Below are positions 736 to 54,758 of a stretch of 64,000 nt of DNA, piece after piece. The notes under the pieces were generated by a model. That model ran no database searches. It saw only the letters and a list, made by a program, of their open reading frames with translations, and was not told the origin of the DNA. The DNA is from Thermoguttaceae bacterium. GTDB lineage: Bacteria > Planctomycetota > Planctomycetia > Pirellulales > Thermoguttaceae. The first letter of the stretch is position 1, and the number at the start of each line of letters is the position of its first letter. The translations under genes were made by a program, and so were the position numbers. Location of the stretch: contig JANXAQ010000144.1 in assembly GCA_025062105.1 (NCBI GenBank), positions 1 through 64,000 of the forward strand, in the 5' to 3' direction.

Positions 736-2130
736 ATGCGCGAAATCCTCTTTGAATATGAACTAAATCCCACGACATGGGTTTATATCTCTTCTTTGAT
801 GACCATTGGGATTTTTTTTAAATTCGGTCGGTTTTGGAGTATCCGGAACCTGGATCTCATGCTGCTGATAGGGTTTGCTCCAGGGCTATTGATGGTAGCG
901 CCCCACCGGGCGGAGTGGGTACAGCAATTTGGGTATGGCTGGCTTTTTACGGTCAGCGGTCTGATGCTCATTCGGATGCTGTTGGATACGCTTATGGTCC
1001 GTCGGCCGCTGTTGGAACCGAACTTGTCGGCAAGTGGTTTGACGTTTACCTGTATTGCGATGTTGGTCTTTTTAACGACCAATGTGATCACCCAGTCGCT
1101 TAAAGAAAGCGAGGTCACTGGGGCGGTATTAGCCGACCATCTTTTGCAGAAAAAGGAATTACCCGAAACAGCACCTGTCGCCGAACGGTCCACGGTGGGG
1201 TATCCGTTGTTCCATATTTTTGCCAGCTACTCCGATCGTCCTCTCCCCAAACAGACCCCACCCGAACAGGTGGAGCGAGCCTTGATTCGTCGGGCGGTTA
1301 CCCGTTCTGTAGCTGTTCTGGCCCACTTGGCCGTGGTCCTCGGCCTAATTGTGATCGGATACCGGCATTTTGAAAATATGCACACTGGTATCGCCATGGC
1401 CTCTCTCTATCTGCTGTTACCCTATACTGCCCAGACGACGCCCCGGCTGGATCATGTGCTACCCGCCGCCTTGTTGGTCTGGGCAGCCGAAGCCTACCGA
1501 CGACCGGCTATTGCTGGCACGTTGATCGGGTTGGCCGCCAGCTTCATCTTCTATCCGCTTCTGCTGGTGCCGTTATGGTGTGGCTATTACTGGCGCCGCG
1601 GACGATGGCGCTTCGTAATTGCGGTAGGCACAGTGCTGCTGGTGATGACGCTATCCTTACTGCTGTTCTCCAAAGATCGAGAGACTTTTCTGAGCCAACT
1701 CCGGCAGATGTATGCTTTGGAAGAGATGCGAGAAATATTTCACAGTAAACCTGCTACGGAACAGGTGGCTGGGTTTTGGCATTTCCATATCGCCTATTAC
1801 CGGATTCCGGTTTTTGTGGCGATTGTAGTGCTAGCAGGGAGTCTGGCTATTTGGCCCCCCCAGAAAAATTATGCTACGTTGTTGAGTTGTTCAGGTGCGG
1901 TGATGCTGGCAAGCCAATTTTGGCACATGCCGGGCGGCGGGACCTACTTGAACTGGTATCTGCCGTGGACGATCCTAATGATATTTCGCCCAAACCTGGA
2001 AGACCGAATTGCCCCCAGTGCAGTCGTCCCAGCCGAAGCCACGTGGTTGGTCCACCTTTTGCCAGCTTTACGAGCTAAAACCGGTTCTGCTGGCTCCCTT
2101 AGTCCACCCGGTGGTCGGCCTTCTTCTTAA
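736..2130 (+). CDS. Conserved planctomycete multi-pass membrane protein
   Basis: The product has 464 residues and about ten hydrophobic segments, clustered at residues 15-105, 120-140, 190-290 and 350-430. Its start is set by an AAAGGGGTGA ribosome site just before the ATG. The central part (bulky hydrophobics around GTLIGLAASFIFYPLLLVP) resembles the GT-C / DUF2029 style of polytopic membrane proteins, but I see no catalytic signature, so no reaction is assigned. The N-terminus (ELNPTTWVYISSL, RPLLEPNLSASGLTF) has the look of a family conserved in Pirellulales. The last 40 residues after FRPNLEDR are low-complexity. No close neighbour suggests a pathway. Confidence 0.8.
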   Translation: MREILFEYELNPTTWVYISSLMTIGIFFKFGRFWSIRNLDLMLLIGFAPGLLMVAPHRAEWVQQFGYGWLFTVSGLMLIRMLLDTLMVRRPLLEPNLSASGLTFTCIAMLVFLTTNVITQSLKESEVTGAVLADHLLQKKELPETAPVAERSTVGYPLFHIFASYSDRPLPKQTPPEQVERALIRRAVTRSVAVLAHLAVVLGLIVIGYRHFENMHTGIAMASLYLLLPYTAQTTPRLDHVLPAALLVWAAEAYRRPAIAGTLIGLAASFIFYPLLLVPLWCGYYWRRGRWRFVIAVGTVLLVMTLSLLLFSKDRETFLSQLRQMYALEEMREIFHSKPATEQVAGFWHFHIAYYRIPVFVAIVVLAGSLAIWPPQKNYATLLSCSGAVMLASQFWHMPGGGTYLNWYLPWTILMIFRPNLEDRIAPSAVVPAEATWLVHLLPALRAKTGSAGSLSPPGGRPSS

Positions 2131-2299
2131 CCCCGCTGCCAGCCGGATAGGTACCTTAGCCAAGCAAAACCTGCCCCCCAGTGCTCTGTTTCTGCCTACA
2201 CCAGCTGCCAAACTCGCCGTTCTAACCGAGCTTCTCATGGGAGCTGGTTAAGGACTGAGGCTCCTGGGGAGCCCTTGCAACATCCGAACCCTCTAGTGA

Positions 2300-2447
2300 C
2301 TCAACTTTTGCCAATTTTTCTAACTTGGCTTGCCTCCAAGAGTTAGGGCGAACGCTCCTTTTGTGGATGCAAATTCCTAAGTCCAATAATTACAGGGACT
2401 TCGCGTTTTCCTCTTTTTGGCAAGAGGCCAAAATGGCAAAAGTCGAA
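2300..2447. repeat. Family B MITE-like element with 7-bp target duplication
   Basis: The element has ends CTCAACTTTTGCC and GGCAAAAGTCGAA (consensus CTCGACTTTTGCC / GGCAAAAGTCGAG). It is flanked by the direct repeat CTAGTGA at 2293-2299 and 2448-2454, as expected of a transposed unit. Confidence 0.88.
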
Positions 2448-2456
2448 CTAGTGAAG

Positions 2457-2663
2457 GAACCTCTACAAAATCCTGAGGAACTTCTGCATAATTCAAAGGA
2501 GATATTTTTATCCCATTTTGGCTCTCCTTCCTCTCGCACAATATATAGAGCTGCTAGCGTTGCTACCAGCCAATATATAGTACCTGTCAGGTATGCCAAC
2601 CGAACGGCTATGAAATCAAAAGTTCACAAAGTGCACTATATGTTCGGATTTTCCAGAGGTTAC
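2457..2663 (-). repeat. Family A element (complete) preceded by a family A end fragment
   Basis: Positions 2457-2476 are the first 20 bp of a forward family A copy. A complete reverse copy follows directly (2477-2663), from GGAACTTCTGCAT to CCAGAGGTTAC with the central GCTAGCGTTGCTA core. This looks like one copy inserted into or beside another. Confidence 0.82.
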
Positions 2664-3275
2664 TCGATATATCGCCAGAAAAGTTTCGAAAACCCCGCAT
2701 TACCTGAGCTCCCAAATGATCTTTCCTAAAGGCTGCAATTTCTCCAAATTAACAATTAGCTTCTTCTAAAAGATTTTAAAAGGTTTGTTATCCCCCCGTT
2801 GGGAACAATCATTTGCTGCCGTTGTAAGGCTAAATCCATCGCAAAGCGGAAGATAACAGCGAATTGAAGGAGAGGCGGAGGATACCAAAATAGTGTAAAA
2901 GAATCACCTTTAAATTATGGGGGGATGGCCAGGTTCTTTGGGCAACTGGTGACTGGGCTCCTTCTCCCTGGTTGCAAAAGGACCGAACTTTGGCAAAAAA
3001 GGAAGTTTGGGATTGTTAGGAAAGAGAAAGACTCTTATGATGGGGCCGTCCTTGGTTTTCCGCCCAGTGGCCGGGGAGGCTGGTTTGGAGCAAAGCCTCA
3101 CTGGTCTGGGGGGACCAATGTTAGAACTTAGATCATTTAACCTGGCGGCTCGTTTTCGTAGCTATGAAGGCTATGAAGACGCCGGGTGTAGACCGCGGAA
3201 CCCTCTGTTTGGCCTCGCACATGCGGCGAATAGGTTGTGCAACCGGAGAAACGACTGGTGGGAGGAGAGTAAGGA
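2664..3275. other. Intergenic stretch without a recognisable gene
   Basis: I see no repeat of families A-E here. A 68-codon frame at 2925-3131 has no clear ribosome site and no recognisable content. The last 15 bp carry the GGAGGAG ribosome site (3261-3267) of the next gene. Confidence 0.5.
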
Positions 3276-4097
3276 ATGGCAAAACCGGTGTGGAACGGAC
3301 TCCGGAGTCTCATTTTATTAGGGACTCTTTTGCTCTTACCGGTAACTGCTATGGTAGGGCTTGAGCAACTGCTACCGTCTGCCTATTGGATATGGAATGC
3401 CTCCTGGGGGATAAAATTGGCATCAGCTCGGGAGCAATCCTCCCCCTTTCGAAGGCAGGAGCGAGGCACAAGCCAAGGGGATAAAAATCAGATAATAGAT
3501 CAAAATGATCGAGATTTTTGGGCACATCCATCTTATGGCGAACTCTCACAAAGAAGTAGCCAGAAAGATCCATCCCGGAAGAACACCGGCCTAGACCACC
3601 CCCTGCCAAAAGGAAGAACTAACCCCGCGGAAGTTGCCCTCCTTTCTACCCCTCAAAGTGAGGTAAGATTTGCACTCAACCGGAGGTCCAGAAAAACAGA
3701 AAATCCTCTGCTGGACTCCGGGGGGAGTAGAAATTACCTCGTGGAGGGAATAAATTCCCAATTTAGTAGGGATATACCCCCCTTTTTAGACTACTCTTCG
3801 AAAACATCGGAACAGAGGGGGCAGTTGCCGGAGCCTTGGCAGAAAGATTGCCAACAGTTCGGTCGATATTTGGAACAATTAGGGGCCACCGAATGGTCCG
3901 TAGAACGATGGGGCTTGGGATTCTATCGAGCCTCTTGTCGGGTGCGGGTATTGCCCAGAGGCACTTTATGGAGTCGGCATTTCGAGGCCACAGGGACCGA
4001 GGCGTCCGAAGCAATGGCAAAACTACTGGAGCAGGTGGTGGGATGGCGGGAGGAAAGATCGGGTGGAAGCTATCCCCCTGAAATGGGCGCTCCATAG
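3276..4097 (+). CDS. Membrane-anchored protein of unknown function upstream of scpB
   Basis: The product has 273 residues. The start is fixed by GGAGGAG eight bases upstream. There is one N-terminal hydrophobic segment (about residues 10-32), then a long polar, low-complexity stretch (50-175) rich in S, R, Q and N. A compact C-terminal domain follows (about 190-262), containing LGATEWSVERWG, FYRASCRVRV and a helix ending LLEQVVGWREE. That C-terminal block looks like a small planctomycete-specific alpha/beta domain that I cannot name. The protein would be inserted in the cytoplasmic membrane with most of its chain on one side. It lies 148 bp upstream of scpB on the same strand, so co-transcription is possible. 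Confidence 0.7.
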   Translation: MAKPVWNGLRSLILLGTLLLLPVTAMVGLEQLLPSAYWIWNASWGIKLASAREQSSPFRRQERGTSQGDKNQIIDQNDRDFWAHPSYGELSQRSSQKDPSRKNTGLDHPLPKGRTNPAEVALLSTPQSEVRFALNRRSRKTENPLLDSGGSRNYLVEGINSQFSRDIPPFLDYSSKTSEQRGQLPEPWQKDCQQFGRYLEQLGATEWSVERWGLGFYRASCRVRVLPRGTLWSRHFEATGTEASEAMAKLLEQVVGWREERSGGSYPPEMGAP

Positions 4098-4245
4098 ATA
4101 GCAAAAATAAAAATTCTCCGAACCTTCCAGGAGCACTTCTTGAAACTCTCTTTGGATGGTACAGTGAGGAAAAGAGAGAAAAAAACGGACTCAGCTCCTG
4201 TGGGGGCTTGTCAACTGGATAGAAACCTGGCTAGGCTATGAAAAA

Positions 4246-5067
4246 ATGGACCGAAGGGGACTTTGCCTACCCATTCGGCTAGGAAGTGTCGCGGGACGGT
4301 ATTGTGTTCCTGGCAGGCTATTGGAGCAGCCTACCAGGAGCCACCAAAGCATTGGAGAGGAGATTTTTGAGAAAGGAGAAGTACCCAAGGGGCTATCGGT
4401 GCGGGAAAGGACGCCCGGCCTGGCGAGATTAGAAGCGGTGTTATTTTTAGCCGAAGAACCTTTAACCAGTCGAAAAATTGCTCAGTTGGCTGGGTTAGAC
4501 GATGCTACGCAAGCGCGGACCCTTATCCGAATATTGAATCGGTTATATGATGAAGAAGGCCGAGCATTTCGGGTCGAGGAGGTAGCTGGGGGATTTCAAT
4601 TACTAACCCGGCCTCAATTTGCCCCCTGGCTTCGGCGGTGGGCCGGATCCGAACGGCAGCTATGCCTGTCTAGCCCCGCATTAGAAACACTAGCGGTGAT
4701 AGCCTATCGCCAGCCGGTGCTGCGAGCAGAAATCGAAGCAATTCGGGGCGTCCAATGTGCTGAAATTCTCCGCCAATTGATGGACCAGGATTTGATCCGG
4801 ATGGTTGGCCGGTCCCAGGAATTAGGACGCCCCTTTTTATACGGAACTACCAAACGATTCCTCCAACTTTTCGGACTTCGCCATTTGCAGGAACTTCCCC
4901 CAGTGGAAACCTGCCAGCCAACAACGCAGTCTCAACCACAACCTTCCTTGGAAACGCAAATCACTCAACAAGAAGTTATAGGTATTCAACCTGCCATTGT
5001 AGTTGAAACGAGTAATGATCAAGGAGTAGAACGTGACCACTCAACTGACCAATCCTATGACACTTGA
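4246..5067 (+). CDS. scpB: Segregation and condensation protein B (ScpB)
   Basis: ScpB is the winged-helix subunit of the SMC-ScpA-ScpB condensin that compacts and segregates chromosomes. The family core starts near residue 58 (LARLEAVLFLAEEPLTSRKIA). It runs through the second winged helix with LETLAVIAYRQPVLRAEIEA and ends at GRPFLYGTTKRFLQLFGL, which is diagnostic. The product is 273 residues against about 180-200 usually: there is an N-terminal extension of about 50 residues and a 60-residue Q/T-rich tail. An in-frame GTG at 4399, six bases after AAGGGG, gives a start much closer to the core and may be the true one. The 3' end overlaps the start of the next gene by 35 bp, so the two are translationally linked. 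I see no scpA or smc nearby. Confidence 0.93.
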   Translation: MDRRGLCLPIRLGSVAGRYCVPGRLLEQPTRSHQSIGEEIFEKGEVPKGLSVRERTPGLARLEAVLFLAEEPLTSRKIAQLAGLDDATQARTLIRILNRLYDEEGRAFRVEEVAGGFQLLTRPQFAPWLRRWAGSERQLCLSSPALETLAVIAYRQPVLRAEIEAIRGVQCAEILRQLMDQDLIRMVGRSQELGRPFLYGTTKRFLQLFGLRHLQELPPVETCQPTTQSQPQPSLETQITQQEVIGIQPAIVVETSNDQGVERDHSTDQSYDT

Positions 5068-5386
5068 ACAGTTCCAGAGTTTCTGTGTTGCTGGATGGGG
5101 AGACCTTCAAAACTTTGCTCCCCGCCCTGCCCGAGATGACGATCTAGACGAAGACTTCGACGACGAAGACTTCGAGGACGAAGACGAAGATTGGGACGAA
5201 GACGAAGACTGGGACGAAGACGAAGATTGGGAAGAAGTCCCTGAAGACGAAGAAGAGGAAGAAGATAACGAAGAGGAAGAAGAGGACGAAGATTGGGAAG
5301 AAGACGAAGATTGGGAAGAAGACGAAGACTGGGACGAAGATGAAGATTGGGAAGATGAAGAAGAGGAATCCGAGGAAGAAGAATAA
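5033..5386 (+). CDS. Small, extremely acidic DEDEDW-repeat protein
   Basis: The product has 117 residues from a GTG start (109 from the in-frame ATG at 5057) and overlaps the scpB 3' end. The first 35 residues are ordinary (LEQFQSFCVAGWGDLQNFAP). The rest is almost only D, E and W in tandem units of the form DEDEDW / EEDEDW. The matching DNA is an approximate 18-bp tandem repeat, but synonymous changes (GAC/GAT, GAA/GAG) keep the amino-acid pattern, which argues for selection on protein. Regularly spaced Trp in an acidic chain suggests a disordered, DNA-mimic-like or cation-binding tail; this is inference. An intrinsic terminator follows 88 bp later. The long serine-rich frame on the opposite strand is its mirror image. 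Linkage to scpB hints at a nucleoid role, unproven. Confidence 0.75.
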   Translation: MTTQLTNPMTLEQFQSFCVAGWGDLQNFAPRPARDDDLDEDFDDEDFEDEDEDWDEDEDWDEDEDWEEVPEDEEEEEDNEEEEEDEDWEEDEDWEEDEDWDEDEDWEDEEEESEEEE

Positions 5387-5473
5387 ACCTCGGTAATCCT
5401 TCCCACTCTCCTAGTCTGCCGGCCAAATCAGTACGAAAACGTTGCGTTTGCCGGAAAAAAACCGGACGTCGCT

Positions 5474-5497
5474 CGGCCCAATGGGGCCGTTTTTATT
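5474..5497 (+). terminator. Intrinsic terminator of the scpB / acidic-protein transcript
   Basis: A perfect 6-bp GC stem, CGGCCC (5474-5479) and GGGCCG (5484-5489), has an AATG loop and is followed directly by TTTTTATT. Confidence 0.85.
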
Positions 5498-5672
5498 CAT
5501 CGACGTGATGTCCAACTAAAATTGCAGCGGATCGGTTGCTCCTTCTGGTCATTGCCGCGAAAGCATAAGTCAGCTTGTGCAGAGTTTTTCGGAGGAGAAA
5601 ATCCTCCGGATCCGTACCCCGTGGGGGTTAACTGGTGCGAAAGAGGGCTTCTGCCTATTTCCCCCGAGTACT

Positions 5673-5860
5673 GGAACCTTTGCATAATTGATCTGCACAA
5701 TTCAAAGGATATCTTTTGATATCCTCTGGCACTCCTCACCTCGGATTCTATATGTAAGGAGGCTAGAACCGCTAGCATCCTACATATAGTAGCGGGGCGA
5801 TAGGGTAGGCTAATGCTTATGTTCATATAGCTAATCATATGTCCATCATGTGTGGAGATT
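5673..5860 (-). repeat. Degenerate family A element
   Basis: It starts GGAACCTTTGCATAATT. It keeps the GAACCGCTAGCATCC core and the ATATAGTAG block, but the far end is strongly mutated, so this is probably an old copy. Confidence 0.7.
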
Positions 5861-6565
5861 TTTAATAATTGTTTTCTATATATAAAAATTTGTTTACTAA
5901 TCCTCTGAATACAAGCAACCCCTCGGCCAAATCAAAGACGAACCCCCGTTTTTCAGGGTAGAGCTTTTCCATTCCTCGGTGCTCCGCTTCAATTACACCG
6001 CATCGTTCAATACGTCCTATCGCCTTTGAATGAAAGAGAATCCAGCTTGGGAAAAGGATCCTCTTAAACAGAAAGTCCCATAGTTTCGCTCCTTTGGGCA
6101 AAAGCCACATTAAAGAAGGAGGGAGCTGATTTTTTTGGTCCAAGATAGCTAGAGTTAGTCCCCAGTCTAATCGAACTGCTTCTTGCCGGCACCGCAGGAA
6201 ACAAGGGACCCGTTTTCTAGATTCCCGGAGCTATGACTCTCTGCAAGGAGTGTAGGTCCCTAAAGCGTTTTGGTCTCTATATCAGGAAAACAGGTAGATG
6301 CGGAGCAACGTTGGAATTCCAAAGGTCAGGCTTATTTTGTCTATCCTTATTTTGCGCAATTGATCCAGAGCATTTCAGCCACACCCGAAGTAGGCTAATG
6401 GAGAAGTTTTTCCCGGTTTTGCTAGGGCTTTATCTGTTGCATTTGAACTGAGACACCAAAAGCGTCTCAACAATCCGGAACAATCTCGAAAAACCGTTAT
6501 CTCAGCACAATTCAAAAACTTGGCGTTCCTGCGCAAGCAAGTATTCATTTGTTTCGGTAAAAAGC
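5861..6565. other. Non-coding stretch, no gene recognised
   Basis: Two short frames (minus 5862-6143, plus 6233-6451) have no ribosome site, no recognisable motif and no family resemblance. I see no repeat of the five families either. Confidence 0.45.
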
Positions 6566-6591
6566 CTTGCCCAATTCAAGGAGATATTTTT

Positions 6592-6779
6592 GGAACTTCT
6601 GCATAATTCGAGAAAGATGTCTTTATACTATCTTGGATCCCACTGCTCCTACCCAATATATTGTGTTATCAGCACTGCTAGCACCTACATATAGTAGTTA
6701 TTTCGGTGGTGCAGCTAAGCCCTACGGAATCAGAAATTCATAAAGTTCATTATATGTTCAGTATTTTGCAGAGATTTCT
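6592..6779 (-). repeat. Family A element, inner copy 1, with TTTT target duplication
   Basis: Its ends are GGAACTTCTGCA and GCAGAGATTTC. TTTT occurs on both sides (6588-6591, 6780-6783). Confidence 0.85.
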
Positions 6780-6786
6780 TTTATAG

Positions 6787-6964
6787 GAACCTCTGCATAA
6801 TTCAAGGGGGATATTTTTATACCATTTGGGATGCCATCCCTCTAACACAACATATAGAGCTGCAACATTGTTAGCACCCAATAGATAGTAGATTTCCAGA
6901 TAGGAGAATCAACCGGCTATAGAGACAAAAGTTCACTACATGTTCAGGATTTTGCAGAGGTTCC
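6787..6964 (-). repeat. Family A element, inner copy 2, with TATA target duplication
   Basis: Its ends are perfect, GGAACCTCTGCA and TGCAGAGGTTCC. TATA flanks both sides (6783-6786, 6965-6968). Confidence 0.9.
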
Positions 6965-7127
6965 TATACTATTTCGCTTTACACTTTCTCTAATCTACAA
7001 GCCATATCGCTGCTAAGGGTGCTAGTATCCCACAGATAGTTGATGTTCGGCGGGAAAACGAAACAGCCAGAACATTAAAAGCTCAAATTCACTATCCATT
7101 GTTCAGTATTTTCCAAAGTTCCTCTAG

Positions 7128-7422
7128 TTCGATTTTGCCAATTCTTTCTAACTTGTTTTACCTTCAAGAGTTATGGCGTTCACGCCTTTTGTGCAGACAT
7201 TTTGGAAATCTTTCCTCTAACACAACATATAGAGTTGCAACATGGCTAGCACCCAATATATAGTAGGTGTTCGAATAGAAGAATCGAACGGCTATAGAAA
7301 CAAAAGTCCATAAAGTTCACTACATGTTCAGGATTTTGCAGAGGTTCCTTTGCTAATTCCAATAATGCCATGGCCATAAAGCTTTCTCCTTTCGGCAGGA
7401 AACCAAATTGGCAAAAGTCGAG
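7128..7422. repeat. Family B element interrupted by a partial family A element
   Basis: The B halves are 7128-7196 (TTCGATTTTGCCAATT onward) and 7349-7422 (ending GGCAAAAGTCGAGT). Between them, 7197-7348 is a reverse family A copy lacking its first 40 bp or so and ending TGCAGAGGTTCC. Confidence 0.82.
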
Positions 7423-7674
7423 TTGAGTCTATCCTATATGTTTCCCACTTGGCCGGGAACAAGCCTCGATTCCCGCGTGCCGACAGAGACAATGGCGAGA
7501 ACGTTATGGAGTAAAACAAACTCCTCTCTCTACTCCGGTAAGCTTTTAGAGTTACGCAAGGGCAGCCTGATTAGACCTTACCCCCTTTAAAGCGCAAATT
7601 GCCCCTTCTAGGAGCAGACGTGATTTCGCTTCCCCCGATCGGTTTATAGGCCTCAAAAAATTTTTATTTAAGGC

Positions 7675-7702
7675 TAGACAAGCATTAAAAAATAAGTATG
7701 AT
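7675..7702 (+). promoter_or_regulatory. Sigma-70-type promoter of an RNA candidate
   Basis: TAGACA (7675-7680) and TATGAT (7697-7702) are separated by 16 bp and preceded by an A/T-rich UP-like tract (about 7654-7670). No open reading frame follows, so the transcript is probably an RNA. Confidence 0.6.
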
Positions 7703-7708
7703 AGATAT

Positions 7709-8016
7709 TTAAAAGTTTGGACGTAACATTTCGGCCGAGTAAAAAGCTCCCGATGCCGCCGGCCTCACGGGAGGCTCATTGGCACAGACACCGATGGCAG
7801 AGGAGGAAACTTTGCCATTCACTCCGCGGGGAGCCAACTTTTAGGTGGGCTGACTGCGGGGGTAAAAATGTCGGTTAATCGGCTTAGCCCCTTATCCTGG
7901 CGGTCTCCCGCCGGATAGAGGGACAAATAAACTCTCCTCGCAATAGGGGAGAAAAAAATCATTTCACACTTTTCGCTTCAAGAGTCATTGTTTGCGGACC
8001 TGCTGAGCGGGTTTTT
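7709..8016 (+). ncRNA. Candidate structured non-coding RNA of about 300 nt
   Basis: The segment is GC-rich between AT-rich flanks, has a promoter in front and ends in an intrinsic terminator. Several strong helices are readable by eye. CTCCCG and CGGGAG enclose a 15-nt loop near 7747-7773. GGCAGAG and CTTTGCC enclose a GAGGAAA loop near 7796-7816. A roughly 10-bp stem, ATCC-GGCGG with CCGCC-GGAT, lies near 7893-7915. CTCTCC and GGGGAG lie near 7932-7951. No start codon with a ribosome site opens a sensible frame. I could not match it to RNase P RNA (no GAGGAAAGTCC), tmRNA (no T-arm end), SRP RNA or the common riboswitches. It may be a housekeeping RNA with unusual sequence, or new. Confidence 0.5.
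7999..8016 (+). terminator. Intrinsic terminator ending the RNA candidate
   Basis: CCTGC (7999-8003) and GCGGG (8007-8011), which pair with one G-T, are followed by five T. The stem is short, so this is moderately supported. Confidence 0.5.
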
Positions 8017-8190
8017 AATGGTTGCTTTCTGAACTGGGTAACCACACAGGAAAAGGAAACGGGGGATCTGGAAGAGTGTTTTGCTTGCGCTGAATGCCGA
8101 TCCAGTAAGGCAGTCGGCTTCTGAAGACGAGTTTTTCCCGTTTTGGCCTTCTGCCGAAGGGGAATAACTTCTCGGATTTTTTTGGGTTAA

Positions 8191-8275
8191 GAAATTAAGT
8201 TAAGAAATTAGGTGACTAACAGGAAGTTCGTCGTAACACCTGAGGCAAAGGGATTGGGGAACTGGCAAAAGTTGA
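8191..8275. repeat. Family B right-half fragment
   Basis: It contains AAATTAGGTGACTAACAGG, AAGTTCGTCGTAAC and a GGCAAAAGTTGAAC end, as in full family B copies. The left half is absent. Confidence 0.6.
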
Positions 8276-8424
8276 ACGACAAGACTCTACTGAAAAGGGG
8301 ATTTTCACCAGAAAAGAACAGTGTACTTTCCTGAATTCTAATGCCCGATTTTCCAGGACCATCGATGGAAAGGGCAGTTAGTCCTAAAGCCACTAAGAAA
8401 CCATAATTTCAGGACAGCCTCTGA

Positions 8425-8580
8425 GAGGCTGTCCGAAAAAGCATTTTCTATGAAGGGAGGTTTCCTCCCTGAATTCCGCAGGATCCCTTAAATCCCTGTT
8501 TTTAAGGTGTCTGAAGGATAGGATCCGGTCGGCCAAAACCGATTGGGAACCAGCCAAATCCCCAATTTTAGGACACCCTC
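8425..8580 (+). repeat. Family C MITE-like element with TGA target duplication
   Basis: The ends are GAGGCTGTCCGAAAAAG and TTTTAGGACACCCTC. TGA lies on both sides (8422-8424, 8581-8583). The sequence just before it (AGGACAGCCTC) is the end of another, lost family C copy. Confidence 0.85.
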
Positions 8581-8701
8581 TGAGAGGTTGGTATTGGGGA
8601 AGTTGGAGTTGTTGAAAGTAGCTACGGTTTCTGGCTGCCGGTCGATCTACCTAAAAGGAGAATTGGCACCTGGAAGATCTATGGCCTCTTCTCTGTTCCG
8701 G

Positions 8702-8749
8702 CCCCGTCGTTTCGCCTGCCAGTTGCGAACGGCGGGGTTTTTTATTTTT
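8702..8749 (+). terminator. Strong intrinsic terminator without an assigned gene
   Basis: CCCCGTCGTT (8702-8711) pairs over 10 bp with AACGGCGGGG (8728-8737) and is followed by TTTTTTATTTTT. No gene ends here, so it may close a small RNA starting after the family C element, or be left over from a deleted gene. Confidence 0.85.
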
Positions 8750-9031
8750 GTCTGGTAGCAGTGTGGGCGTAGAGTGTAGGCAAGGAAACACTCTCCCCCA
8801 GCCTGAACCTGCTCAGAAAACAGTTGCGCCAGCACACGCAGCATCCAGAGCCCAGTGCCTACAGACCCGAGCTTGCCTACCAGGTATGGCTAAAGGCATT
8901 TGCCCTTTGCCCCTAACCCCCTAAAGGCTAGGGGAGAAGGAGTCCCGGGCCTTGTTCCCCTAGTGTAAAGCTGCCAACAAAAACCCCGACTTGCTCACTC
9001 GTCCGGGCGGAAAATTACCCTGAAAGGGCTC

Positions 9032-10216
9032 TTACCAGACTTCATCGATTCGGACAGGTCGGCGTTCAGCCGCCGAAATCAACGCCGCTTCCAGCACCCG
9101 TTGGGTTTGGTAGGCGTCCTCAAAGTCGGGGATCGGCACTACAGGCTCCTGCCCGGCGATAACCCGCAAAATGTCGTAGGCTTCGTTCACAAAGCCGTGT
9201 TCGTAGCCGATGATGTGGGCGTCTGGCCACCAGTTGGCCACGTACGGATGATCGGGCCCATGCGTACACATGATTGTCGTCCAACCTTGGACCGCCCGCG
9301 GCAAAGTTGCATCGTAGTACTGAAGTTCATTCATCCGCTCGAAGTCGAACTTCAATGCGCCTTTAGTGCCGTTGATTTCAAATTGGTTGCGGTTTTGGTT
9401 ACCGGTAGCCTGTCGAGCTGCCTCGAAGCTAGCCACTGCTCCCCCAGAAAACCGAGCCAAAAACAACACCGTATCGTCCACCGTCACATCGCCCATTTCT
9501 TCGCCGGCAGTTCCGGCCCCAAGAGTTTCGCCGCCGGTACCTACTAGGCGTTTGCGTTTTTTGATGAAGGTTTCGGCAATAGCGCCGACCACCTCGGTGA
9601 TTTCCTGTCCGGTAACGAATCGGGTCATATCGATGATGTGGGCGTTTAGGTCGCCATGGGCGCCGGAGCCTGCAAGATTTTTGTCAAACCGCCAGACTAG
9701 AGGCACCGATTCATTGGCCCAATCCTGCAGATATACAGCCCGCACATGGCGGATTTCGCCTATGCGGCCTTGTTTTACCAGCTGATGGGCCAGGGCAACG
9801 GCCGGGCAGCGCCGATAGTTGAACCAGACAAAAGTTTTGCCTGGAGCTTTGCGGGCGGCTTCTGCCATGGCCCGCGCATCGGCCAAAGTACCAGCCAACG
9901 GCTTTTCACAAGCCACGTGTTTTCCAGCCTCCAAAGCAGCTATGGCTACAGGAGCATGCATGTAATTGGGAGTAACCACATCGACCAGGCCAATTTCCGG
10001 CGATCGGACCACCGCCTGCCAGTCGGTAGAGGCATGCAGCCAGCCCCAATTCCGGGCAAACTCTTCCGGGGTAGGTTTTTCTTCCGGCAGACCAAAAACG
10101 GTATGCATGACGGCCCGAATCGGCGGCTTAAAGAACTTGTTGACCTGCCCCCAGGCGTTGGAATGCGAGCGCCCCATAAACCCCTGACCAATCAGTGCCA
10201 CATTGATGGTTTCCAT
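9032..10216 (-). CDS. Gfo/Idh/MocA family NAD(P)-dependent oxidoreductase
   Basis: This is a cytoplasmic dehydrogenase that oxidises or reduces a sugar or cyclitol using NAD(P). The 394-residue product begins METINVALIGQGFMGRSHSN, the Rossmann GxGxxG-type start of the family. The conserved ACEKPLAGTLADARAM segment follows at about residue 100, where Lys of EKP is the catalytic region, and a C-terminal alpha/beta substrate domain comes after that. The start at 10216 is chosen because AAGGAG lies nine bases upstream; the frame is open a further 29 codons without a site. HGDLNAHIIDMTRFVTG is the usual His/Asp substrate region. No sugar-uptake or kinase neighbours help define the substrate. It stands alone between repeat-filled spacers. 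Confidence 0.93.
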   Translation of the reverse strand: METINVALIGQGFMGRSHSNAWGQVNKFFKPPIRAVMHTVFGLPEEKPTPEEFARNWGWLHASTDWQAVVRSPEIGLVDVVTPNYMHAPVAIAALEAGKHVACEKPLAGTLADARAMAEAARKAPGKTFVWFNYRRCPAVALAHQLVKQGRIGEIRHVRAVYLQDWANESVPLVWRFDKNLAGSGAHGDLNAHIIDMTRFVTGQEITEVVGAIAETFIKKRKRLVGTGGETLGAGTAGEEMGDVTVDDTVLFLARFSGGAVASFEAARQATGNQNRNQFEINGTKGALKFDFERMNELQYYDATLPRAVQGWTTIMCTHGPDHPYVANWWPDAHIIGYEHGFVNEAYDILRVIAGQEPVVPIPDFEDAYQTQRVLEAALISAAERRPVRIDEVW

Positions 10217-35879: not shown

Positions 35880-36598
35880 TGAGGTTATCAGCGGGAGGTT
35901 TGCCTTTTTCCTTAACTACTTTTGCCGCAGATACTTACTACAAAATCCTCTTTCGTACCTGAGATTTCCTAGCTGCCACAGATGCAAGCAGTTAGGGCAT
36001 TGCTGTTGCGGCAAGAGGCCCAGCAGAACAAAACTCGAGAGGCAAAAACACTAAGAACCTCGAACAACATGAAAAAATCAGACGGTGTTAAGGCGTTTTC
36101 TGCCCCCTTGGCGGGTGGTTGGAAAACTCATGTTGTTAGCGACTCTAATGGATTCTGCCTGCCCATTAAAACGATCCCAAGCAGGCCGCTGCTGGCCGTT
36201 GTACTGTCCAGTCAGCTCGACTTTGGTCAATTTTCCTAAGTCCTTTTGTTTCCAGTAGTTACGACGAGACTTCCTTTTGTTCACGCTATTTCCTAACTCC
36301 AATAGTTACAAGGACTTAGAGTTTCCCCCTTTCGGGAGAAGGCCTAAAATGGCAAAAGTCGAGGTTAGCTCGACTTTTGCCATTTTACCCAACTGCTTTT
36401 CTGCTCAGGAGTTTCGACAGACCTTCCTTTTGCTGACACAATTTTCTAACTTCGGCAATTCCAAGAGGTTATGGTTTTTTCTTTCGACAAGAGGCACAAA
36501 ATGACAAAAGTCGAGATTAGGGAATTGGGTCCGCAAAAGGATGGTTCGTCGTAAAGCACGGGGAGGAAATAAGTTAGAGAAAATGGCAGACGTCGCGC
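35880..36598. repeat. Group of family B elements
   Basis: A degenerate copy lies at about 35880-36045. Clear copies lie at 36216-36363 and 36369-36515 (CTCGAC...GTCGAG ends; TTAG on both sides of the second). A right-half fragment lies at 36516-36598, ending ATGGCAGACGTCG. The spacer 36046-36215 shows nothing else. Confidence 0.83.
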
Positions 36599-38499: not shown

Positions 38500-38689
38500 G
38501 GAACCTCTGCATAATTCAGGGAGGATATGTTTATACTATTTTGGCTTGTCCTCCTTTTACCCCAACATATAGGGTTGCTCGCATTGTTAGCGGCCAATCG
38601 ATAGTAGATGTTCGACTCGAAGAACGAGAGGACCTAAGAATCAAAAGTTCATATAGTTCACTATATGTTCAGGATTTTGTAGAGGTTCC
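38500..38689 (-). repeat. Family A element, complete
   Basis: The ends are GGAACCTCTGCATAATTC and TTTGTAGAGGTTCC. The core is GGGTTGCTCGCATTG. No target duplication is obvious. Confidence 0.87.
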
Positions 38690-38881
38690 TTATTCAGGTT
38701 GGAATTACCAAAGGAATCTTTCTGGCTGGCAGAGGGTGTATGTTCCCGCTTTTCTTTTTTGGTAGAGTTCCCGATCATTGGTTATTCAAAGCTCAAGAGG
38801 GGGCTTTGGTAGAATAGTGTGTCAAGGTAATTGGGTGTTGTTGGTTGGGGTTGCCCCTTGGGGGAAAGGATTAGGAGCAGC

Positions 38882-39001
38882 ATGATGGTGGAGTTTTCCA
38901 TTCGACCGGATGATATTTTGGAGGGACGGTTTTGGCCGGAACCTGTTTGTGTGCGCATTATCGCCCCAATAGGGTCTCGTATAAAGATCGAGGCGGGATG
39001 A
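38882..39001 (+). pseudogene. N-terminal stub of an SNF2/DISARM-like helicase gene
   Basis: The stub is 39 codons from an ATG with TTAGGAG in front, reading IRPDDILEGRFWPEPVCVRI and IGSRIKIEA, then Gly and TGA. The GRFWPEPV.V....IG.RIKIEA pattern is the opening of large SNF2-type helicases found in restriction-like islands, where it continues for about 1000 residues. Here it breaks off exactly where the DUF499 coding sequence appears in another frame, so a deletion has removed the rest. The ribosome site and probably the promoter are intact. Confidence 0.65.
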
Positions 39002-39029
39002 AGCAGTCTTTGCGGCCGATCTTTCGGAC

Positions 39030-41564
39030 GTGACGGCCGATCGAGGTCCAGTGGAATACCGGGATCCGCATACCTTCTTCCAAAAGACCTACCTGACCCA
39101 GGGGCTGCGGGAACTTCTGGATGCGGTGGTAGCCCGATTGAGCGGCAAAAAGACCGGACAAGCTGTTATCCAAATTCAAACCCCCTTCGGCGGCGGCAAA
39201 ACCCATAGCCTGATCGCCCTGTATCATCTGGTCCAATCAGCTAAAGAGTTGACCAGCTTCGAGCCATTCAAAGAGATCTTAGAAACCATAGGGCTTGCCG
39301 AGCTGCCCAAGGCCAGCCTGGTGGTTTTTGTCGGAACGGCGGCCGACCCACTACGAGGCAAAACCCCCTGGGGCGAATTGGCCCACCAACTAGGACAATA
39401 CCCCCTCCTGCAAGAACACGACCAAAAACGCTGCGCTCCAGGTAAAAATTTGCTCCATCAGCTCCTGAGCAACCAACCTACCCTAATCCTGATGGACGAA
39501 ATCACCGAATATGCGGTTAAAGTAAAAGAATACCGAGATCAATTGATGGCTTTCTACCAAGAGCTGACCGAAACCGTCAAAGTCCTGCCCCGCTGCACGT
39601 TGGTCGTTACCTTGCCGTCTAGCGCACCGTACGGCGAAGAAGGAGAACGCGTCCTCCATCAACTGCAACAGATCTTCCGCCGCGTGGAAACCATTCGGAC
39701 CCCCGTGGAAGGAGAAGAAATCTACGAAGTCATCCGACGTCGATTGTTCGAAGATCTGGGAGATCCCCAAGCGGCCCGCCGCACCGCGGACGCATTCTTC
39801 GAACTATACCAACGCCTGGGCGACGATCTGCCCAAACAGGTCCGGGAACCGGCCTATCGAGATCGCATCCGCAAAGCCTACCCCTTCCACCCGGAACTGA
39901 TCGATGTGCTGTTTGAACAATGGAGCACCTTCCCCGATTTCCAACGCACCCGAGGTGTCCTGCGCCTGCTGGCAGAAATGGTCCGCCAGCTCTATCAGGA
40001 GCGACATCCGGCACCCTTAATCCTGCCAGCCCACCTGAACCTGGCTAACCCCGCCATCCGAGGAGAATTTCTGCGCCATATCGGCAACGAATACCAGGGC
40101 GTCATCACAGCCGACATCGACGGGCCTCACGCAAAAGCCGGCAAAATCGACAAAGAAATGGGCTCGGAATACACTCGGTTTGCCGTAGCCACAGGACTGG
40201 CGCGTGCTATCTTTTTCGCCTCCTTCAGCGGAAGCGAAAAACGCGGGGTAGGAATCCAGCGATTACGCTTGGCCGTCATGCAACCCGGCCTGCCACCAAC
40301 CATCGTCGGGGATGCCCTCCATCGGCTGGAAGAAGAACTCTGGTACCTCCACATCGAACACGGCCTATATTGGTTTTCTAATCAGCCGAACCTCAACCGC
40401 GTGATCGTCGAAAAAGAAGAGGCCGTAACCAGCCAACAGATCCAGCAAGAAATTCGGACTCGGTTGGAACAACTAGCGGGCCGTGAACTGCGAGTTACCA
40501 TTTGGCCCCAACTGCCCCAAGATCTGCCCGATACCAAAGAATTGAAACTGGCAATCCTGCCACTCGAATATACCCGGCAGGCAAGCCCTACACAAACATT
40601 TGTACTAGAACTCCTGAATCAATACGGACAAACCTTCCGCACCTACCGAAATACCTTGCTACTACTGGCCCCCGATGAAGCAGAACTCAACCGGCTCCGC
40701 CAACAGATCAAACGCTACCTAGCCTATCAGGCTATCTGGCACGACAAAACCCTGCTCCGACAATTGTCGGAAGAAAATAAAAAAACTCTCCAAACCAGAT
40801 TAAAAGACACCGACAGCGCCATCGCCCACCTGATCCTCTCCACCTATCGCCACTTGGCCAAAGCCGAAGACCATCAATGCCGTTGGCTGGATATGGGCCT
40901 GCCAACCCTAGGAACCCAACCCAGTTTGGCCCACCGAGTCTGCAGCTACCTGAAACAGGAAGACATCCTCCTTGACAAAATCTCGCCCAAACAGGTGCTG
41001 GAAAAAGCCGTCGGAAAAGACCAGCCCCAAAAACCTGTGGAAGAAATCTACGAAGCCTTCTTGAAATACCCAAACCTGCCTATCCTAAAGCATCGACAAG
41101 TCCTGGTAGATGCCATCCTGCAAGGCGTCCGAGACGGTCTGTTCGGCGTAAAAATCGGCGATCAAACTTTCTTCCAAACCACCCCCGGCCAAGTAGGCCC
41201 CGATGCCTTGCTGGTACGCCATCCCCAGACGGCCCCGAAAACCTCCCCTCCACCCCCTACCCCAGCCGCCCAACAACCCCCGCCCCCTCCTGCTCAACAA
41301 ATGCCACCACCCACTCCCCACGATACATCACCGGTCCGAACCATCCACACCTATACCCTCCGCGCTGCCATTCCCTGGGATCGGCTTTCTGCCGTGGTCC
41401 ATGGCGTCCTAAGCCCCCTAAAACAAGATGGCGCCGAACTCACCATCGAACTCCGCCTCCACGCCCACAGCCCCTTGGGGATCAAACTATCTACCCTCGA
41501 GCACAAAGTCCGAGAAACTCTCCGACAAATCAACGCCCAAATTTTCGAACAAACAGAAGATTAA
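39030..41564 (+). CDS. DUF499 family ATPase, N-terminally truncated
   Basis: The product has 844 residues from a GTG without a good ribosome site. The P-loop is PFGGGKTH (52-59) and Walker B is LILMDEITEY (152-161). The DUF499 fold continues through FRRVETIRTPVEGEEIYEVI, YPFHPELIDVLFEQW and RTRGVLRLLAEMV. There is a P-rich linker (about 730-770) and a C-terminal domain ending LREINAQ-like (ETLRQINAQIFEQ). DUF499 ATPases normally accompany a DUF1156 DNA methyltransferase and an SNF2 helicase in putative phage-defence islands. In this frame the coding similarity extends upstream of the GTG (DEAVFAADLSDV, 38997-39032) to a junction with a helicase stub, with no start codon. The protein therefore lacks about 20-30 residues and its partner genes. 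It may be translated by re-initiation after the stub, or be decaying. Confidence 0.85.
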   Translation: MTADRGPVEYRDPHTFFQKTYLTQGLRELLDAVVARLSGKKTGQAVIQIQTPFGGGKTHSLIALYHLVQSAKELTSFEPFKEILETIGLAELPKASLVVFVGTAADPLRGKTPWGELAHQLGQYPLLQEHDQKRCAPGKNLLHQLLSNQPTLILMDEITEYAVKVKEYRDQLMAFYQELTETVKVLPRCTLVVTLPSSAPYGEEGERVLHQLQQIFRRVETIRTPVEGEEIYEVIRRRLFEDLGDPQAARRTADAFFELYQRLGDDLPKQVREPAYRDRIRKAYPFHPELIDVLFEQWSTFPDFQRTRGVLRLLAEMVRQLYQERHPAPLILPAHLNLANPAIRGEFLRHIGNEYQGVITADIDGPHAKAGKIDKEMGSEYTRFAVATGLARAIFFASFSGSEKRGVGIQRLRLAVMQPGLPPTIVGDALHRLEEELWYLHIEHGLYWFSNQPNLNRVIVEKEEAVTSQQIQQEIRTRLEQLAGRELRVTIWPQLPQDLPDTKELKLAILPLEYTRQASPTQTFVLELLNQYGQTFRTYRNTLLLLAPDEAELNRLRQQIKRYLAYQAIWHDKTLLRQLSEENKKTLQTRLKDTDSAIAHLILSTYRHLAKAEDHQCRWLDMGLPTLGTQPSLAHRVCSYLKQEDILLDKISPKQVLEKAVGKDQPQKPVEEIYEAFLKYPNLPILKHRQVLVDAILQGVRDGLFGVKIGDQTFFQTTPGQVGPDALLVRHPQTAPKTSPPPPTPAAQQPPPPPAQQMPPPTPHDTSPVRTIHTYTLRAAIPWDRLSAVVHGVLSPLKQDGAELTIELRLHAHSPLGIKLSTLEHKVRETLRQINAQIFEQTED

Positions 41565-41814: not shown

Positions 41815-41989
41815 GGGCGAGAGAGATATTTTTTATACTATTTTGCTTCCCTCCGCACATAACCCAATATATGGGGTTGTTAGCCCCGCTAATACCCTCC
41901 ATATAGTAGGTGTTTGGCTGGACAGCTACAGCCTACCAAATCAAAAATGCATATAGTTCGCAATATCTTCAAGATTTCGCAGAAGTTCC
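41815..41989 (-). repeat. Family A element with decayed left end
   Basis: It contains GATATTTTTTATACTATTTTG, GGGGTTGTTAGCCCCGC and the right end CGCAGAAGTTCC. Confidence 0.78.
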
Positions 41990-42054: not shown

Positions 42055-42454
42055 GCTCGACTTGTACCAATTTCCGGGGCCCTGTTTGGATGCCTTAACT
42101 TCTTCCAAATACCAAAGTTAGGGATTTGCTGGCGAAAGCCCCCTTAACTCGACTTTTGCCATTTTCCCTAAATCCTTTTGTTTCCAATAGTTACGACGAG
42201 ACTTCCTTTGGTTCACATAATTTCCTAACTCCTATAGTTACAAGGAGTTAGAGTTTTCCCCTTCCGGGAGAAGGCCTAACATGGCAAATGTCAAGCTTAG
42301 AGGCTGTCCGAAAAAGCATTTTCTATGATGAAAGGAGGTTTCCTTCCTCAATGCCCCAGAATTCCCAAAATCCCTGTTTTTAAGGAGGGTCGAGGGTAGG
42401 AGCCGGTCGGCGCCCATTTGGAAACCAGCTAAATCCCCATTTCAACACAGCCTC
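42055..42454. repeat. Family B fragment, family B element and family C element
   Basis: The fragment lies at 42055-42140 (CTCGACTTGTACCAATTTCC). A complete B lies at 42148-42295, CTCGACTTTTGCC to GGCAAATGTCAAG. C lies at 42300-42454, GAGGCTGTCCGAAAAAG to ACACAGCCTC, flanked by TTA and TGA. Confidence 0.83.
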
Positions 42455-43265: not shown

Positions 43266-43600
43266 GGTGGTCTGGATGTTTGGCCGAAGCTAGGGCAGAA
43301 CCTACAGAGCAGTTTTGAAAGCGATCTAGCCGCGGAGTTTCCGTTAGGAGTGGCTACCAAGATGTTGGGTAATACGCCATCGGTGGCACTACAATATTAC
43401 GTGCACCCAACCGATACGATTTTTGACCAACTAAAATTCTTGGGAACCTCCCCACCGCAGTGGCGCAAAATCCGGCGCACGAAATGCGAAAAATATGGCG
43501 CAGCAGCCGTTTTCCGTGGGACGTGATGGATTGCAGAAAACAACACAACTCTTTACGGATTCACCAGTTACGCAAGGTATTTCCAAAGGTTGCTATATAG
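43266..43600 (+). pseudogene. Tyrosine recombinase (integrase) C-terminal remnant
   Basis: The frame reads DVWPKLGQNLQSSFESDLAA then FPLGVATKMLGNTPSVALQYY, which is the C-terminal core of planctomycete phage-type integrases with the catalytic Tyr in the last YY. A frameshift near 43465 moves the remaining typical tail, SGAKSGARNAKNMAQQ, into another frame. The N-terminal and middle parts with the R-H-R residues are gone. It lies about 170 bp from the 3' end of tRNA-Leu, the normal place for such a gene. Confidence 0.8.
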
Positions 43601-43750
43601 CTCGACTTTTGCCATTTTTGGCGTTCCCCCCCGAAAAGAGAAAACTCTAAGTCCTTGGAAATATTGGAGTTAAGGAATTGGGTGATCAAAGGGAAGTTTC
43701 GTCGTAACTGTTGACGACAAAACCAGTTAGGAAAAGTGGCAAAAGTCGAG
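43601..43750. repeat. Family B element with ATATAG target duplication
   Basis: It has perfect CTCGACTTTTGCC and GGCAAAAGTCGAG ends. ATATAG lies on both sides (43595-43600, 43751-43756). It has inserted between the integrase remnant and the tRNA gene. Confidence 0.92.
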
Positions 43751-43771
43751 ATATAGTATATATTTGTAAAT

Positions 43772-43857
43772 TGGCCGAGACGGGACTCGAACCCGTACGT
43801 GGATTGCTCCACACAGGATTTTAAGTCCTGAGCGTCTTCCATTTCCGCCACTCGGCC
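43772..43857 (-). tRNA. tRNA-Leu (anticodon UAA)
   Basis: The 86-nt class II tRNA folds fully. The acceptor is GGCCGAG/CTCGGCC with discriminator A, and the D-arm lies in GCGGAAATGGAAGAC. The anticodon stem CAGGA/TCCTG has loop CTTAAAA, giving anticodon TAA. The long variable arm is TGGAGCAATCCA, and the T-arm is ACGGG-TTCGAGT-CCCGT. CCA is not encoded. Its 3' end faces the integrase remnant, so it is the likely attachment site of the decayed island. Confidence 0.97.
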
Positions 43858-48994: not shown

Positions 48995-49080
48995 TGGCCT
49001 CTGCAGATAATTGGGGAGAATCGGCCTTGCTATCGAGTTGAACGGAAGACCTTCTTGTTAAGTATGGCATATCTTCTTAG

Positions 49081-49228
49081 CTCGGTTTTTGCCATTTTTC
49101 CTAAATCCTTTTGTTTCCAGCAGTTACGACGAGACCTCCTTTTGTCCACGCAATTTCCTAAGTCCAATAGTTACAAGGACTTAGAGTTTTCCCCTTCCGA
49201 CAGAAAGCCTAAAATGGCAAAAGTCGAG
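49081..49228. repeat. Family B element with CTTAG target duplication
   Basis: The ends are CTCGGTTTTTGCC and GGCAAAAGTCGAG. CTTAG lies at 49076-49080 and 49229-49233. Confidence 0.9.
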
Positions 49229-49232
49229 CTTA

Positions 49233-49386
49233 GAGGCTATCTGAAAAGAGATTTTTGGCTCACTCGGTTGCCAAGTGGTTTCCCCCCCAGGAGGGGATCC
49301 AGCCGAGGATTTGAGTACCTTGGCTACCCAGATCCTTCACCGCCGTTCGAATGAAGACAGGGCTACATCCCTTTTCAGACAATCTC
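49233..49386 (-). repeat. Family D element
   Basis: The ends are GAGGCTATCTGAAAAG and CTTTTCAGACAATCTC. It follows directly on the family B copy. Confidence 0.86.
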
Positions 49387-54403: not shown

Positions 54404-54557
54404 GAGGTTGTCTGAAAAGGGAGGTAGCCAGTTTTTGTTCCAACGGCCGGTGAAAGCTCTGGGTAGCCAAGGTGCCCAAATCCTAGGGTGTAGCTTCTCC
54501 TGGTGGGGGAAACAACTTGGCGGCCGACTGAGCCAAACACTCTTTTCAGACAGCCTC
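54404..54557 (+). repeat. Family D element with TTA target duplication
   Basis: The ends are GAGGTTGTCTGAAAAG and CTTTTCAGACAGCCTC. TTA lies on both sides. A 20-bp family B start (CTCGACTTTTGCCATTTTAG) lies directly before it. Confidence 0.92.
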
Positions 54558-54561
54558 TTAG

Positions 54562-54758
54562 CTCGACTTTTGCCATTTTAGGCCTTCTCCCGGAAGGGCA
54601 AAACTCTAACTGTCTGGAACTATTTGGACTTAGGAAATGGCGGGACCAAAAGAAGGGCTCGTCGTAACTACTGGAAACAAAAGGACTTAGGGAAAATGGC
54701 AAAAGTCGAGCTTAGCATTTTCCCTTTTCAGGAGCAGGCCAAAATGGCAAAAGTCGAG
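54562..54758. repeat. Family B element with CTTAG target duplication, plus a B end fragment
   Basis: It is complete at 54562-54710, CTCGACTTTTGCC to GGCAAAAGTCGAG, with CTTAG on both sides. 54716-54758 repeats the last 40 bp of the family. Confidence 0.9.

Follow-up and report, generated by a model that had tools for sequence, protein, structure and literature searches.

The 64,000-nt stretch of DNA analysed here (the window), from a Thermoguttaceae bacterium of hot-spring type, contains the remains of an anti-phage Hma operon, in which a single internal deletion very probably joined the first codons of hmaA, a helicase gene, to an hmaC gene that has lost its own start. A fusion of a helicase start to a start-less DUF499 ATPase had been proposed in an earlier note, and its coordinates and readings proved right within a few bases. 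Searches of both fragments, suggested there as a check, identified the first as the N-terminus of HmaA (46-58% identity) and the remainder as HmaC.

The hmaA stub

The remnant of hmaA occupies positions 38882..39001 of the forward strand and consists of the first 39 codons of the gene (MMVEFSIRPDDILEGRFWPEPVCVRIIAPIGSRIKIEAG) followed by an out-of-frame stop, TGA, at 38999-39001; the last codons read GAG GCG GGA TGA. A Shine-Dalgarno element, AGGAG (38873..38877, +), can be read from the sequence 4 nt 5' of the ATG at 38882. Being so short, the 39-aa peptide alone matches none of the Pfam or PADLOC models and finds nothing significant in plasmids, and its identity was settled only by comparison with true HmaA N-termini. 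In blastp searches it matched those of relatives at 58% (L107, E 6e-7), 57% (L174, E 2e-8), 56% (L108) and 46% (L106). The helicases of L106 and L107 themselves match HmaA at E 7e-213 and 6e-214, and SNF2, Helicase_C and NOV_C domains are present in both. A profile of 32 HmaA N-termini, run on every peptide of the window's six-frame translation, recovered the stub with E = 8.6e-10, the runner-up having E = 1, and not one of 5000 shuffled versions reached half the stub's profile score; chance is ruled out as the source of its helicase likeness. Judged from these alignments, the 39 residues (38882-38998) are the start of the N-terminal domain of an HmaA-type helicase. A search for HmaA elsewhere in the same genome found no further HmaA-like gene, the matches all being generic SNF2 helicases (best E 2e-15, 34%).

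The HmaC remnant

On the far side of the joint, the frame of hmaC, which encodes a DUF499 AAA+ ATPase, is open over 38985..41564 (+). Homology to HmaC begins at GAT 38997 (DEAVFAADLSDV...; DEAVFAADLSDVTADRGPVEY...), the first 19 codons of the gene being gone, and continues without a stop until 41564. The first start codon in this frame is GTG 39030, at about residue 31 of intact homologues, and it opens the longest HmaC reading frame with a start codon, of 844 aa (39030..41564, +). The product matches the PADLOC HmaC model PDLC00662 (E 9e-155) and Pfam DUF499 PF04465 (E 3e-51), and none of the solved structures searched by sequence matches it. It is the sole HmaC match in its own assembly (contig 112, 38997-41144, from profile position 22), and the start of that match coincides exactly with the proposed junction.

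The missing N-terminal block, KPWxxVVTPHxDIRxGxL (19 conserved codons), is present, with variation, in 23/23 aligned homologues, which argues that the shortened HmaC would be impaired. What is left of the protein is undecayed. In a 24-protein alignment, none of the 54 conserved columns covered by the window copy is altered, and it sits on a branch of no exceptional length (0.37; nearest homologue, 0.26). For each neutral substitution per site, the HmaC codons should yield about 102 nonsense changes; since the 844-codon frame is still open, any unselected time would amount to less than ~0.03 substitutions per site, if selection was lost. An undecayed HmaC fits a young deletion and a retained reading frame alike.

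The junction

The joint can be placed at 38994..38997 (+) by comparing codons with those of L174, L107 and L006: the helicase side ends GAGGCG(G) and the HmaC side begins (G)GAT. The window reads AAG ATC GAG GCG G/GAT GAA GCA, where the slash marks the joint, and the counterparts in L174 are AAG ATC GAA GCA GTC GGC in hmaA and CGC GGG CGG CTC GAT GAA TCG in hmaC. In the numbering of the nearest homologue, L006, the deletion ends lie at codon 39 of hmaA and codon 20 of hmaC. Neither side shows any damage before the joint, where there is a possible microhomology of ~1-2 bp and where no long direct repeat was found. Programmed excision was considered and rejected, there being no repeats at the junction. 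The equivalent segment of L174, accessory genes included, spans ~8.8 kb (~1221-10012 of the locus), and the two genes without accessories would, by their lengths, account for ~6 kb; we put the deletion at ~6-9 kb.

The Hma operon in related genomes

A contig scan with an alignment as query yielded 80 HmaC loci, where a single-protein query had given none. The intact helicase/DUF1156/DUF499 locus that the earlier note expected in relatives is indeed present: HmaA, HmaB (the DUF1156 methylase) and HmaC follow one another in that order on one strand in, for example, L040, L133, L174, L187 and L195, and the relatives with intact order belong to the same family and order as well as to other lineages. 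The L174 locus has 57% identity to the window over the stub and 61% over HmaC. Upstream DNA of 7 kb or more is available for 60 loci; both hmaA and hmaB accompany hmaC in 51 of them, and most of the others are broken, divergent or truncated where a contig or locus ends. In the genome that carries the window, by comparison, no match to PDLC00661 or PF06634 marks an HmaB/DUF1156 gene anywhere.

It is this order that makes the junction the expected product of one deletion, and it supports the earlier proposal that a single event can explain the loss of the helicase, the gene or genes between and the start of the DUF499 protein. The ancestral locus would have carried, all on the + strand, a helicase (hmaA), a DUF1156 adenine methylase (hmaB) and a DUF499 ATPase (hmaC). 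One deletion, sealed at 1-2 bp with no long repeat involved, would then have taken hmaA from about codon 40 onwards, the whole of hmaB together with whatever accessory genes there were, and the 19 opening codons of hmaC. Because the restriction and modification halves would have been lost together, the cell would never have been under restriction without methylation. What remains is a 39-residue helicase stub and an undecayed HmaC frame, which probably no longer form a working defence system. No close relative with an intact operon at the same place was found (the nearest HmaC known here is 64% identical), so the ancestral locus, the exact length of the deletion and the number of events can only be inferred. 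In the same-genus genomes G001 and G002, leuA sits on one contig and the 32842-35196 gene on another, which defeats an empty-site comparison; the G002 contig ends just past tRNA-Leu.

The HmaC relatives that are 44-64% identical to the window copy (L165-L195) come from metagenome-assembled genomes labelled Planctomycetota, Chloroflexota, Chlorobiota, Bipolaricaulota, Proteobacteria and Archaea, and a good many of these genomes seem to come from hot springs; this suggests wide horizontal spread of the clade among thermophiles. The contig with the nearest HmaC (L006, identical to L168) has a coverage of 2.2, against 6.8 for the other G053 contig, and its assignment to G053 is uncertain.

Comparable breakage is seen in two other genomes. 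In G219 (L110 5636-6611, G219:C65), not one of the genomes for which an HmaC match is listed, a second deletion scar joins HmaA residues 1 to ~196 out of frame to the C-terminal part of HmaB, from residue ~846. In G053 (L038 2560-9802, G053:C88, the same contig as L188), hmaA is in four pieces, hmaB is truncated and hmaC is intact; stretches between hmaA and hmaB resemble, by eye, an MNT nucleotidyltransferase and HEPN pair.

Genomic surroundings

Six larger ORFs were tested in the neighbourhood (29.8-49 kb), corresponding to an ABC ATPase, a nucleoside hydrolase, an outer-membrane-efflux-like protein (by eye), a C39 peptidase, LeuA and a GNAT protein. No clear defence gene was found among them, and since no other defence gene was found nearby, the earlier description of the locus as a dismantled defence island goes too far: what was dismantled is an operon.

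Dispersed repeats are plentiful on both sides of the remnant. Upstream of the scar lies a copy of a highly abundant family (38510..38740, +), with a diverged copy downstream of hmaC (41832..41989, +). The repeat is ~180 bp long, recurs at ~20 further places in the window and has at least 45 matches genome-wide; a first look at the 6.07-Mb assembly gave 1033 candidate places, of which 40 were scored. The family may be MITE- or REP-like. A second dispersed family, ~150-180 bp, partly palindromic and found in both orientations, has copies up to 88% identical at 36216-36368, 42143-42322, 43600-43753, 49076-49255 and 54543-54710. Also downstream of the hmaC remnant is a tRNA-Leu(taa) gene on the minus strand (43772-43857). 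An eroded tyrosine recombinase at ~43300-43500 (+; LGVATKMLGNTPSVALQYYVHPTD) was entertained on resemblance by eye; it was not confirmed, and we therefore make no claim of an island with an integrase.

These surroundings bear on the possibility that the scar arose through successive events, for instance decay of hmaA and hmaB followed by a tidying deletion, or an insertion that was later excised. The scar does lie amid repeat-rich non-coding DNA, and the G053 operon, with its apparent MNT-HEPN-like insertion between hmaA and hmaB, offers a picture of piecemeal decay. Such a history is nonetheless unlikely, though it deserves to be kept in mind; there is no damage on either side up to the joint, and one event is the simplest account.

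Possible translation of the remnant

The junction itself creates an 11-codon ORF (38998..39033, +), which overlaps the end of the hmaA stub through ATGA and the GTG at 39030 through GTGA. The overlaps at ATGA 38998 and GTGA 39030 could form a predicted re-initiation chain. No Shine-Dalgarno sequence was found at GTG 39030, nor any significant RNA structure at the junction (z 0.8), and the remnant is probably poorly translated, from this GTG if at all.

A different view would hold that the truncated HmaC is a retained orphan ATPase, translated by termination-re-initiation or by +1 frameshifting and functional without helicase or methylase. In keeping with this, the 844-codon frame has no conserved residue altered, the original Shine-Dalgarno and ATG of hmaA are kept, the stop-start pairs overlap (the hmaA stub TGA, ATGA 38998 and GTGA 39030), and hmaC is again the intact gene in the broken G053 operon. 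Yet a recent deletion would leave the frame just as intact, and neither a ribosome-binding site nor RNA structure helps the GTG. Moreover, the product would lack ~30 residues, including the near-universal N-terminal motif, and HmaC is accompanied by HmaA and HmaB in 51/60 long-flank loci. We consider a retained orphan improbable. An assembly or binning artefact, in which the contig wrongly joins the two ends of an intact operon, is very improbable, even though the draft genome is in 345 contigs and abounds in dispersed repeats. A misjoin requires a shared stretch of about the assembler word, and the two sides share just 1-2 bp and no long direct repeat; the pieces stand in the right operon order and strand; the left-over segment (hmaB and what is missing of hmaA) does not occur in the assembly, which is 93.8% complete; and the junction is deep within a 108-kb contig.

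Relationship to known defence systems

The system from which the remnant derives is Hma, also described as a DUF499-centred Type-1 BREX-related (BR) system, and not DISARM. Hma comprises the HmaA helicase, the HmaB methylase and the HmaC ATPase (PADLOC, Payne et al. 2021, PMC8565338). The remnant shares with it an HmaC that matches PDLC00662 and a stub that matches the N-terminal end of proteins whose own HmaA scores are E < 1e-210; it differs in having no HmaB, an HmaA cut to 39 codons and an HmaC without its first 19 codons, and is thus an incomplete system. Type-1 BR systems have the same three core genes, and the first element of their helicases is described as an N-terminal TUDOR domain (2026 survey, PMC12839542). 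The stub would sit at this position and, on that ground, would be the beginning of a TUDOR domain. The remnant departs from Type-1 BR in being without helicase, nuclease and methylase, and no N-terminal HEPN domain could precede the shortened HmaC. Of the features that define Hma or Type-1 BR, the locus retains the DUF499 ATPase; an SNF2-type HmaA, a DUF1156 HmaB and a complete HmaC N-terminus are missing.

The earlier attribution of the stub to an SNF2/DISARM-like protein holds for the helicase and fails for DISARM. Intact relatives of the stub do match DrmD models too, but more weakly (E ~1e-150 to 1e-155, against 1e-213 to 1e-221 for HmaA), and the partner is a DUF499 protein rather than DrmA, DrmB or DrmC; no DrmA, DrmB or methylase gene was found among the six neighbouring ORFs tested. 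All told, the locus is a clean relic, and an ordinary one, of a defence system already known.

Implications

Annotation pipelines would report the remnant as a DUF499/HmaC gene and might count a defence system where there is a relic. In surveys, a lone HmaC match does not justify calling a system unless HmaA and HmaB are there too.

Should HmaC turn out to be expressed and retained, one could ask what the ATPase does alone, on which we found no report. It is most improbable that a re-initiation-driven orphan HmaC is held under selection without its helicase and methylase, for instance as a DNA-binding scaffold or as a dominant inhibitor of incoming Hma systems; were this reading true, loss of the restriction and modification genes with hmaC kept, as in G053, would be a recurrent route. 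With the single deletion as the preferred account, the locus offers a clear example of how an operon resembling a restriction-modification system is lost, the restriction helicase and the methylase vanishing together while the ATPase stays.
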